Shown one piece after another: positions 3,206 to 7,075 of a stretch of 64,000 nt of DNA; the first letter of the stretch is position 1, and the number at the start of each line of letters is the position of its first letter. The stretch is from Balneolaceae bacterium (lineage in GTDB: Bacteria > Bacteroidota > Rhodothermia > Balneolales > Balneolaceae), in contig JAEPQE010000001.1 of assembly GCA_017640665.1 (NCBI GenBank), forward strand, positions 310,001-374,000. The letters are read 5' to 3'. A program made the translations under genes and the position numbers. The notes under the pieces are model-generated. The model did not search any database. It worked only from the letters and a program-made list of their open reading frames with translations, and was not told the DNA's origin.

Positions 3206-3423
3206 TCAAAATTAACCAGGGCTTACTCGCAGAATAATCGTCTGTAAAACAGTAAATTTTTTTCGTTTAATTCTATTTCGGTCAAATTATTTAAGGCTGT
3301 TAGAATAATATTCTGCATTGTATTTTATGAACTTAACATTCTTTCTAAATTCGGTATTGCTGGATTTAAAAAAAATTCCAACTACTCTTGATTGATACTT
3401 TAACATCCCGTAAGCTTTGTGTA

Positions 3424-3498
3424 ATGAAATTTTCAACCCGATATACCGATTGTAAGCCCGCATGCTACTGCATGTGTATGTGCATGATGTGCACCTGA
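3424..3498 (+). CDS. Putative Cys/Met-rich leader peptide (24 codons)
   Basis: A short ORF opens with ATG at 3424 and ends with TGA at 3496-3498. Residues 14-23 read CYCMCMCMMC, so nine of ten codons are Cys or Met; a further Cys is residue 10. It lies directly upstream of a hairpin-plus-T-run terminator, a SAM riboswitch and the methionine/cysteine-metabolism gene metY. That is the position and codon bias expected of a leader peptide whose translation senses charged tRNA-Cys and tRNA-Met. No clear Shine-Dalgarno site precedes it. A TAAGCTTTG motif ending at 3419, with TTG at 3388-3390, loosely resembles a Bacteroidota -7/-33 promoter and would make the transcript nearly leaderless. The stretch is also a low-complexity TGCATG-like repeat, which by itself encodes Cys-Met, so conservation is needed. 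Confidence 0.55.
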   Translation: MKFSTRYTDCKPACYCMCMCMMCT

Positions 3499-3570
3499 AG
3501 GGCTTGATGTATTTAGTTTTTAAATAAACACGAAAAGCCCTTTTGAATGCAATATCAGAAGGGCTTTTTT
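3454..3570 (+). promoter_or_regulatory. Candidate ribosome-mediated attenuator with antiterminator and terminator hairpins
   Basis: Four segments can pair in mutually exclusive ways. Segment 1 is AAGCCC at 3454-3459, inside the leader ORF. Segment 2 is AAGGGCTT at 3498-3505, starting at the leader stop codon. Segment 3 is AAAAGCCCTT at 3533-3542. Segment 4 is AAGGGCTTTT at 3559-3568, running into a T run to 3570. Pairing 1:2 gives 6 bp, 2:3 gives 8 bp and 3:4 gives 10 bp followed by T residues, an intrinsic terminator. A ribosome stalled on the Cys/Met codons (3463-3492) would mask segment 1 and allow 2:3 antitermination. A ribosome reaching the stop would cover segment 2 and allow termination. 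The pairing is seen in the sequence; the mechanism is inferred. Confidence 0.6.
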
Positions 3571-3613
3571 GTTGGGAGTTAATCTCAGGCGTTCTTTAAT
3601 ATATAATTGCATT

Positions 3614-3751: not shown

Positions 3752-3792
3752 AAAAGCCTCGTTCGAATTCATTTTGAACGAGGCTTTTTTTT
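3752..3792 (+). terminator. Intrinsic terminator, expression platform of the SAM riboswitch
   Basis: AAAAGCCTCGTTC (3752-3764) pairs with GAACGAGGCTTTT (3776-3788), and the T run continues to 3792. It sits about 45 bases after the aptamer and about 45 bases before metY, so SAM-bound RNA would end here. Confidence 0.9.
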
Positions 3793-3811: not shown

Positions 3812-5164
<1,353 letters not shown>

Positions 5165-5390: not shown

Positions 5391-5927
5391 ATGAGTACTA
5401 TAACAACTGAAATAAACACTATCGATCAAAAACTTAACGAAACTATTTCGAATATCATTAATCATGTGAAAGAAAACCCCTCAGCTAAAGATGTAACATT
5501 TGCTGTTGATTCAAAACTTGAAAAAGGATTCCGGTCTGAAATCAATGTTAGGGGGTTTCAATTCATCGTTGATGAGCCTGAAAGTCTTGGTGGAGAAAAC
5601 GAAGCACCAAACCCAGTCGAGTATGTGCTTGGAGCGTTAGCTTCCTGCCAGGAAATTGTAATCAAAGCGTATGCGGGTCAGCTTGGAATTGATCTTAAAT
5701 CCGTTAGAGTGGAAGCTTCCGGCGATCTGGATTTGCAGGGCTTTTTTAATCTTTCAGATGAGCGCCCGGGGTTCAACAATGTTCGATACAAAACCGTGAT
5801 ATCGACCAATGAAACGGATCCGACAAAGCTCCAGCTTTTGAAGAACTTTTCCACAGATCGATGCCCGGTATTAGATATAATTGCTAATCCGGTGCCAGTG
5901 AATGGTGAAGTGGTGTATATCAGTTAG
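5391..5927 (+). CDS. OsmC family peroxiredoxin-like protein
   Basis: This 178-residue protein is an OsmC/Ohr-family member, usually a cytoplasmic thiol-dependent reductase of organic hydroperoxides. Residues about 45-178 form the OsmC fold. The two family cysteines are Cys86 (ALASCQE) and Cys158 (TDRCPVL). The first 40 residues are a helical extension. It lies between metY and metX on the same strand, so it may share the SAM-responsive transcript, although the 226-base gap upstream with two palindromes may hold its own promoter. The location suggests a link to sulfur or thiol metabolism rather than a general osmotic role. That link is inferred. Confidence 0.85.
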   Translation: MSTITTEINTIDQKLNETISNIINHVKENPSAKDVTFAVDSKLEKGFRSEINVRGFQFIVDEPESLGGENEAPNPVEYVLGALASCQEIVIKAYAGQLGIDLKSVRVEASGDLDLQGFFNLSDERPGFNNVRYKTVISTNETDPTKLQLLKNFSTDRCPVLDIIANPVPVNGEVVYIS

Positions 5928-5936
5928 AAACTCACC

Positions 5937-5960
5937 CACTCATTGAAACACCAATGAGTG
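5937..5960 (+). other. Hairpin after the osmC-like gene
   Basis: CACTCATTG (5937-5945) pairs with CAATGAGTG (5952-5960), a 9 bp stem with a 6-base loop, beginning 9 bases after the stop codon. No T run follows directly. It may protect the 3' end of the message or fold together with the next hairpin. Confidence 0.5.
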
Positions 5961-5973
5961 ACACAGCAAAGTT

Positions 5974-6014
5974 CGGCAAGACCCTCACTCCGGTTTTGTC
6001 GTTCTTTGTTTTTA
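5974..6014 (+). terminator. Candidate terminator or attenuator just before metX
   Basis: CGGCAAGACC (5974-5983) pairs with GGTTTTGTCG (5992-6001) over 10 positions including two G-T pairs. It is followed by the T-rich run TTCTTTGTTTTTAA. It lies 28 bases before the preferred metX start and would lower metX expression relative to the upstream genes. Confidence 0.55.
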
Positions 6015-6028
6015 ATTTAAACTCAACT

Positions 6029-7075
6029 ATGAGCAAAATAAAGAAGCACTCATTTTCAAAAAGCTTTACTACCGAATCCGGTTTTACATTCGAAAAGCCC
6101 GAAGCAGCCTATCATACCTGGGGTACTCTTAATGAGACCAAAGACAATGTAATTCTGGTAATTCATGCCCTTACCGGAAATTCCAATATTGAAGATTGGT
6201 TTTCGGGATTTTTTGCTGAAAGTAGCCCCATTGATCTGAAAAAACATTTTGTGATTTGCATGAACATTCCCGGAAGTTGTTATGGCTCGCTTAATCCGTG
6301 GAGTATCAATCCGAAAATCGGCGAGCCTTACAGAGGTGATTTCCCCGTTTTTACCATTCGGGACGTTGTTCGTTTTCAACAACTACTTATTAATCAACTT
6401 GAAATAAAAGGTATCGAACTTGTACTTGGAGGTTCCTATGGAGGAATGATTGCCCTTGAGTTTGTTCTGATGGATGAGCGTGTCAAAAGAGCCTGTTTAG
6501 TAGCAATGGGAAAATCTCACTCCCCCTGGGCAATTGGAATCAGTCATGCCCAGAGAATGGCTTTGTATGCTGACCCGAAATGGAATAATGGTTTTTATGA
6601 GAAAAATGATCCTCCGGCCAAAGGGCTTGCAGCTGCCCGGGCCATGGCCATGATCACTTATCGAACTCCCCAAAACTACTCAGAAAAATTCGGGAGAGAT
6701 TACAATCCTGAGAAAGAACTTTTTGAGGTAGAATCCTATCTCGAATACCAAGGGAAAAAACTTGTTAGCCGATTTGATGCCCTCACCTACGATCGCCTCA
6801 CCAAATCCATGGATACCCATGATGTTTCCAGAAATCGGAATTCGTTCAAAGAAGTTCTTGGCAATATTGATATTCCTGTTTTAGTAATAGGCATTGATTC
6901 GGATAGGCTTTATCCAACCTCCGAACAAAAAGAGTTAGCAGAACTTATTCCCAATGCAATTTACCAAGAGATTCACTCCCCATTTGGACATGATGCATTC
7001 CTGATTGAATTCGAGCAGATTAATAAGCATTTAAACGATTTTCTTAAAGAGATAAGCTCCGATATTATTTTTTAG
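6029..7075 (+). CDS. metX: Homoserine O-acetyltransferase
   Basis: The protein (348 residues from this start) is an alpha/beta hydrolase fold acyltransferase that makes O-acetylhomoserine from homoserine and acetyl-CoA, feeding MetY. The nucleophile elbow LGGSYGGM puts the catalytic Ser at residue 136. The acid (GIDSDRLYPTSEQ) and the histidine (FGHDAFLIE) are present near the C-terminus. The frame is also open from an ATG at 5954, but those 25 extra codons run through a hairpin and T-rich stretch and look non-coding, while MSKIKKHSF fits the usual start. Some family members use succinyl-CoA; the metY neighbour favours acetyl transfer. Confidence 0.92.
   Translation: MSKIKKHSFSKSFTTESGFTFEKPEAAYHTWGTLNETKDNVILVIHALTGNSNIEDWFSGFFAESSPIDLKKHFVICMNIPGSCYGSLNPWSINPKIGEPYRGDFPVFTIRDVVRFQQLLINQLEIKGIELVLGGSYGGMIALEFVLMDERVKRACLVAMGKSHSPWAIGISHAQRMALYADPKWNNGFYEKNDPPAKGLAAARAMAMITYRTPQNYSEKFGRDYNPEKELFEVESYLEYQGKKLVSRFDALTYDRLTKSMDTHDVSRNRNSFKEVLGNIDIPVLVIGIDSDRLYPTSEQKELAELIPNAIYQEIHSPFGHDAFLIEFEQINKHLNDFLKEISSDIIF

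Follow-up and report, generated by a model that had tools for sequence, protein, structure and literature searches.

A putative Cys/Met leader-peptide attenuator in series with a SAM-I riboswitch before metY in Balneolaceae

The window analysed here is a 64,000-nucleotide stretch of DNA from a Balneolaceae bacterium, and all features given by position lie on its + strand. Near its 5' end is a metY gene for O-acetylhomoserine sulfhydrylase (3836..5164; NCBIfam TIGR01326, 684 bits against a cut-off of 495), whose product makes homocysteine, the precursor of methionine. The next gene in the probable operon encodes an OsmC-like protein (5391..5927; NF041052, 82 bits, below the cut-off of 95) and is followed by metX for homoserine O-acetyltransferase (5954..7075; NF001209, 352 bits, cut-off 331). 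Upstream of metY is the aptamer of a SAM-I riboswitch (RF00162; 3612..3734; cmscan 73.6 bits, gathering threshold 44.4, E 2.4e-15), and the terminator of its expression platform (GCCTCGTTCGAATTCATTTTGAACGAGGC plus T8; 3756..3792) can be read from the sequence. The aptamer is preceded by a boxA-like element, and this in turn by a short open reading frame (ORF) and a set of competing hairpins.

The ORF (3424..3498) comprises 24 codons, ends with the TGA at 3496-3498 and encodes MKFSTRYTDCKPACYCMCMCMMCT. Cys or Met occupies nine of the ten positions from codon 14 to codon 23 (3463..3492), and these are the proposed regulatory codons, in line with the genus-weighted composition of related leaders. 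Four RNA segments can form the hairpins. Segment 1 (AAGCCC; 3454..3459) lies inside the ORF and is the partner of segment 2 (GAAGGGCTT; 3497..3505), which begins within the stop codon and provides the 5' arm of an antiterminator. Segment 3 (GAAAAGCCCTTTTGA; 3532..3546) is the arm common to the antiterminator (2:3) and the terminator (3:4); the shorter string GAAAAGCCCTTTT with which the first-pass annotation described it has its first base at 3532. Segment 4 (AGAAGGGCTTTTTT; 3557..3570) supplies the 3' arm of the terminator and its U-run. The hairpins 1:2, 2:3 and 3:4 are mutually exclusive, and only 3:4 is a terminator. The first-pass annotation had inferred a ribosome-mediated attenuator from this arrangement, and the ORF, its nine Cys/Met codons, and the positions and complementarity of the four segments are borne out by the sequence. 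Its reading was correct in this respect and incomplete in another, having missed the SAM-I riboswitch with its terminator and the boxA-like element further 3'. Neither an Rfam scan nor a promoter/terminator scan reported the attenuator itself.

The RNA from 3424 to 3575 is predicted to fold with -47.9 kcal/mol, compared to -30.8 +/- 3.6 for shuffled sequences (z -4.8), and the 3:4 terminator contributes a hairpin of -19.8 kcal/mol. The spacing of ORF and segments had been likened to trp/his-type attenuation. Folding of partial window transcripts with a ribosome footprint, whose front edge was set about 12 nt downstream of the A site, reproduces the three states expected of such a system. With the footprint at codons 14-20, the 2:3 hairpin appears once segment 3 has been made (-14.5 to -21 kcal/mol). 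With the footprint at codon 23 or at the stop codon, 3:4 is the only possible pairing. The ribosome-free RNA folds into 1:2 together with 3:4. At codon 16, 2:3 remains the best structure even when segment 4 is present; at the other positions among codons 14-20, 3:4 is a few kcal/mol better at equilibrium. Because 3:4 outcompetes 2:3 at equilibrium for most footprint positions once segment 4 exists, the modelled switch would have to be kinetic, with the decision made co-transcriptionally. These position-dependent results also suggest that the early Cys/Met codons are likely to be the effective sensors.

A profile built from the related leaders matches the window's own genome at a single place, 3424-3498 (E 1.1e-5). 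The genome carries a second SAM-I riboswitch before metH (L089; C2:356552-356665, - strand), and a check of this riboswitch for a leader found none. The leader element is thus specific to metY in this genome, as the profile matches nowhere else and the metH riboswitch has no visible leader. Promoter-like sequence is located just 5' of the metH riboswitch.

Searches of related genomes recovered metY in 98 of 98 at E<=0.001, with near-full-length matches in most, and the upstream regions were extracted for comparison. The nearest homologues in the named collection are those of Balneolaceae metagenome-assembled genomes, with 96% identity to isolate ih13; those of Gracilimonas and Fodinibius are more distant. 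A Cys/Met-rich leader ORF precedes the metY riboswitch at 77 of the 83 Balneolales loci with a recognised riboswitch, a count that admits GTG starts, longer upstream sequence and weaker leaders, in which Cys/Met make up 3 or 4 of 10 residues. Under a stricter definition (an ORF that starts with ATG, has five or more Cys/Met in 10 residues and lies within 210 nt before the SAM riboswitch), leaders are found at 63 of 77 testable loci; the same definition is satisfied by 0.17% of dinucleotide shuffles and, on the opposite strand, at 1 of the 77 loci. This threshold is met at 40 of 45 testable loci in family f1 and at all 17 in f3.

The leader peptides resemble one another in composition, not in sequence. 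In addition to MKFSTRYTDCKPACYCMCMCMMCT, examples are MKLTNQYIAREMMCMCCYMRTLH, MKNLTNNIDYCICIMCMCCCST, MISRNALMSMCCMSCHGR and MSKTTQIQIATLRCMMLCQ, and the consensus includes the block CCMCMC. With genus weighting, Cys accounts for 26% and Met for 19% of the last 14 residues. A synonymous/nonsynonymous test was uninformative; the leaders drift fast, and the share of amino-acid changes at Cys/Met positions is not below that at other positions.

A leader was not found at six of the 83 loci (four species of genus g5 and two single species), all of which keep the riboswitch. The metY genes of genus g5 (L026, L027, L035 and L054) are preceded by promoter-like sequence, the boxA-like motif and the SAM riboswitch, and no leader peptide was found there. 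This genus has apparently lost the first gate. Genus g24 of family f4 departs from the pattern in another way. At L050, L053, L055 and L060, a Cys/Met leader without a terminator lies within about 200 nt before the SAM core, and sequence at the start of the ORF (for example, TTTAAATCACG) is complementary to the stop-codon region (CGTGATTTAAA). As far as can be read from the sequence, this is a different switch, whose mechanism is unexplained.

The hairpins recur with the leader. At 69 of the 77 loci with a leader, the ORF is followed by a hairpin and U-run, and 65 of these hairpins are stronger than -10 kcal/mol. Complementarity between the stop-codon region and the 5' arm of the hairpin exceeds that of shuffles (p<=0.05) in 55 of the 69, and in nearly all Balneolales loci the segment-2 pairing starts near the stop codon, from 12 nt before its end to 4 nt beyond it. 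The weakest part of the attenuator is the 1:2 pairing, for which only 13 of 69 loci reach significance on their own.

Covariation was assessed by swapping pairing partners between 27 genera, using an identical best-stem search for real and swapped partners. The score of 2:3 is 18.96, compared to 15.59 +/- 0.43 for permuted partners (p<2e-4; z about 7.9), and that of 3:4 is 24.8 against 17.9 +/- 0.6 (p<2e-4). For 1:2 the excess is smaller (15.0 versus 13.6 +/- 0.4; p=4e-4). Two control pairings were not significant in the same permutation over 27 genera. All of these p-values are approximate because the genera are related. Individual loci illustrate how segments 2 and 3 change together: AAGGGCTT/AAGCCCTT in the window corresponds to GGGGACT/AGTCCTT in L010, CCGGAGG/CCTTCGG in genus g6, CAGAGGGT/GCCCTCTG in g19 and g20, GGAGAGCCT/AGGCTCTCT in family f3, and both AGGGTTCA/TGAACCCT and GGGTTCGTG/TACGAACCC in f4. 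The first-pass annotation had proposed exactly this comparison of regions upstream of metY, and the relatives do keep codons for Cys/Met, the place of the stop codon and, with compensating changes, both the 2:3 and the 3:4 pairing. One outcome that it had named as refuting, a hairpin kept beside a broken frame or codons other than Cys/Met, was not seen, the six loci without a leader included.

The leader appears to be transcribed from its own promoter. A TTG corresponding to the Bacteroidetes-type -33 element is found at 3388..3390, and a -7 element (TAAGCTTTG; 3411..3419) ends 4 nt before the ATG; the spacing of both is conserved in relatives. Relative to the leader start codon, a TTG at -38..-33 is combined with TA at -14..-11 at 45 of 60 loci from families f1, f2, f4 and f5, with typical distances of about 36 and 13 nt. 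When the test is shifted by 10 nt, 1 of 77 loci passes. This spacing predicts that the 5' end of the RNA coincides with the leader ATG or lies no more than about 3 nt from it, although the start site itself is inferred. Since the promoter elements stand at a fixed short distance from the start codon, the leader is probably translated from a leaderless or near-leaderless RNA, and most leaders outside f3 would be situated directly behind a promoter. The fixed spacing is seen at none of 17 loci in f3; in this family, and in some genera, a short 5' stretch apparently takes the place of a leaderless start.

The element between the attenuator and the riboswitch, GTTCTTTAATA (3591..3601), is an exact match to the boxA consensus GYTCTTTAANA (PMC5725501). 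Of 86 loci, 78 have GTTCTTT in the 20-60 nt before the riboswitch core, with a distance of 32-42 nt in almost all of them; among shuffles the share is 1.6%. It also precedes the metY riboswitch in the same-class relatives L083 and L084 and in species without a leader peptide. A search for 16S rRNA in the window's own genome found nothing, and the rRNA leaders of relatives were used instead; GTTCTTT is located before 16S rRNA at L201-L207, seven of the eight loci compared from this order (L201-L208). The element probably recruits the Nus complex to polymerase before the riboswitch is reached, a function that is inferred without binding data. The possibility that GTTCTTTAA is part of a second promoter between the attenuator and the riboswitch was rejected; no -7 element is seen after it, and the motif is also found before 16S rRNA.

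Our preferred explanation, which we consider highly probable, is that the leader region senses charged Cys-tRNA and Met-tRNA through ribosome-mediated transcription attenuation and serves as the first of two gates before metY. The ORF and its codons, the hairpins and their covariation, the promoter spacing, the riboswitch and the boxA-like motif are observed in the sequence and by comparison. Ribosome stalling, the direction of the response, the transcript ends, the leaderless start and the function of boxA are inferred and have no experimental support. In the proposed scheme, transcription would begin at or beside the leader ATG. When Cys (and/or Met) is ample, the ribosome would reach the stop codon and cover segment 2, so that 3:4 pairs and polymerase halts at 3570. 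When Cys/Met is scarce, the ribosome would stall partway through the Cys/Met block, at its early or middle codons (roughly 14-20), and mask segment 1. The free segment 2 could then pair with segment 3 before segment 4 is made, and polymerase would continue. Without translation of the leader, 1:2 and 3:4 would form and transcription would end. Polymerases that pass the first gate would encounter the boxA-like site and then the SAM-I riboswitch, where high SAM would impose a second stop. Because the two terminator gates are arranged in series, full expression of metY would be expected only when Cys/Met is low and SAM is low.

The part played by the Met codons in this scheme is a puzzle. A shortage of Met should also hinder initiation of the leader, and the Met codons may be auxiliary, with Cys as the main signal. 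It remains possible, though we doubt it, that the attenuator responds to Cys alone: stalling would take place at Cys codons, Met codons would be passive or serve spacing or speed, and Met status would be read by the SAM riboswitch. Such a division of labour is consistent with the block to initiation that Met shortage would cause, and with at least two Cys residues in 76 of 77 leaders, some of which have little or no Met (for example, L075 with MLEPNSKQFVNACSKQLCKQC and L058 ending in CCCIWGL). Leaders of Pontibacter-type Cytophagales, moreover, end in Cys runs 3' of a SAM riboswitch, and known cysteine leaders are poly-Cys (PMC1262725). However, at least two internal Met residues are present in 71 of the 77 leaders, Met makes up 19% of the last 14 residues, and the f3 leader L088 (MKKVMSMSMSMMSCLGG) is Met-dominated. 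Gammaproteobacterial leaders also retain MCMCM in the absence of a SAM riboswitch.

A sensor acting through the peptide itself, by metal or thiol sensing or by arrest in the exit tunnel, with codon supply secondary, is improbable. The recurring CC-M-C-M-C pattern speaks for it, and such peptides could bind soft metals. But no column of the Cys/Met block is invariant, as the variants CCMCMCM, MCCMSC, RSCMMLC and MCFCCCM attest; the block lies close to the stop codon of a very short ORF; and the controlled gene is metY in every lineage seen. Least credible of all is a constitutive terminator, or one belonging to an upstream gene, beside an ORF that is Cys/Met-rich by coincidence. The 12-base pattern TGYATGTGYATG does have many more, apparently unrelated matches in these genomes, and the first-pass annotation had itself allowed that a TGCATG-like low-complexity stretch might encode Cys-Met by chance. 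Conservation already refutes this: leaders stand at 77 of 83 loci, and the stricter definition, met at 63 of 77, is satisfied by chance in 0.17% of shuffles. The covariation of segments 2 and 3 and a promoter directly before the ORF are further evidence against it.

An attenuator that reads both Cys and Met codons shares its basic design with the trp/his/leu-type attenuators of Proteobacteria, including a short ORF with regulatory codons, competition among 1:2, 2:3 and 3:4, an intrinsic terminator, and a stop codon positioned over segment 2. In contrast to these, the Balneolaceae leader mixes Cys and Met, is probably leaderless, is followed by boxA and a SAM-I riboswitch, and occurs outside Proteobacteria. 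Leaders with Cys codons have been described for actinobacterial cys operons (PMC1262725), and leaderless polycysteine short ORFs for mycobacteria (Canestrari 2020, as cited in PMC9031893). They share with the present leader a short ORF that has Cys codons close to its end and lies before sulfur genes; in mycobacteria this ORF is leaderless, as is inferred here. They are described with Cys runs and no Met block, with cys/cbs genes and no SAM riboswitch, whereas the Balneolaceae leader has Met codons and precedes metY. The mycobacterial upstream regions also have no conserved terminator hairpin (PMC1262725). With its intrinsic terminator and Met codons, the Balneolaceae leader falls outside the polycysteine type.

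Other systems resemble individual parts of the locus. The metL leader before metNIQ of Streptomyces lividans (PMC8079986, Table 4) is leaderless, as is inferred here, and has mixed Cys/Met near its end (GARCMCRRMCAF). However, it is characterised through its methionines and threonines, a typical terminator was not found, it belongs to a transporter operon of one species, and a riboswitch is not mentioned. The metXZ RNA element of beta-proteobacteria (PMC4239095) likewise places a terminator/antiterminator before methionine genes of the same pathway step. It differs in having six conserved RNA regions, and the main text of that report mentions no leader peptide. The boxA/Nus-factor sites known outside rRNA (suhB and others; PMC5725501) have the exact consensus in common with GTTCTTTAATA, and riboswitches are not mentioned in that study. 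The SAM-I (S-box) riboswitch, with its own terminator, is ordinary by itself; the novelty is that an attenuator and a boxA-like motif precede it.

The open literature yielded no description of a Cys and Met attenuator for metY, of a SAM riboswitch and a leader-peptide attenuator arranged in series, or of any leader peptide from the group to which Balneolaceae belong. This is weak evidence, as subscription papers were mostly outside the scope of the search. The mechanism is classical. Apparently new, at least to us, are the mixture of codons, the probably leaderless RNA as its platform, the tandem arrangement with boxA and SAM-I, and the repeated appearance before metY. If confirmed, this would be the first attenuator found in which codons for the two sulfur amino acids are mixed and a complete terminator/antiterminator switch is present, and a natural two-input AND gate that senses two levels of one pathway, tRNA charging and SAM. 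It also allows one to ask whether Met codons can signal attenuation although Met starts the leader, whether attenuation on leaderless mRNAs is common outside actinobacteria, and whether riboswitches are accompanied by boxA.

Related leaders are found before metY in distant lineages. In Wenzhouxiangella-type Gammaproteobacteria, a leaderless-looking ORF with an MCMC-type block is present at 18 of 30 metY loci (L215-L231 and L234), with an intrinsic terminator after the leader in L215-L229 and L234. In all 15 loci from L215 to L229, segment 2 (GCTGCGG or a variant), which pairs with the terminator arm CCGCAGC, begins 8-12 nt beyond the final Cys/Met codon of the run. This 2:3 pairing covaries (p=3e-4), although the test is weaker than that for Balneolales because the loci are closely related. 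No SAM riboswitch was seen at the Wenzhouxiangella-type metY loci.

In Pontibacter-type Cytophagales, all 30 loci (L245-L274) have an ORF that ends in a Cys-rich block, usually with Met before the block. The SAM-I core motif is directly 5' of the ORF in 29 of the 30, an order opposite to that in the window. At these loci, as well as at L177 and L189, the SAM-I riboswitch is followed by an ORF, about 40-50 codons long, that terminates in a run of Cys, and then by metY. No obvious U-run terminator was seen at the Pontibacter-type loci, and SAM possibly controls translation of the leader there.

The Cys/Met leaders before metY in Gammaproteobacteria and Cytophagales are analogous to those of Balneolales, with convergence versus inheritance unresolved. 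Their recurrence suggests that selection may repeatedly reach the same solution for the MetY enzyme. A broader proposal, which we regard as evenly balanced between true and false, is that these leaders form a recurrent, possibly convergent class of Cys/Met attenuators before metY in at least three distant lineages. On the same proposal, the serial arrangement in Balneolales of leaderless attenuator, boxA and SAM-I would compute 'Cys/Met-tRNA low AND SAM low', and Nus factors loaded at boxA would let polymerase survive the long untranslated riboswitch stretch.

Short ORFs of this kind are also seen at two loci with a divergent metY (63% identity). At L240 and L241, the gene lies after very short Cys/Met ORFs encoding MQSCCMCMCMPTMQ and MYCSMCMSNMQ.
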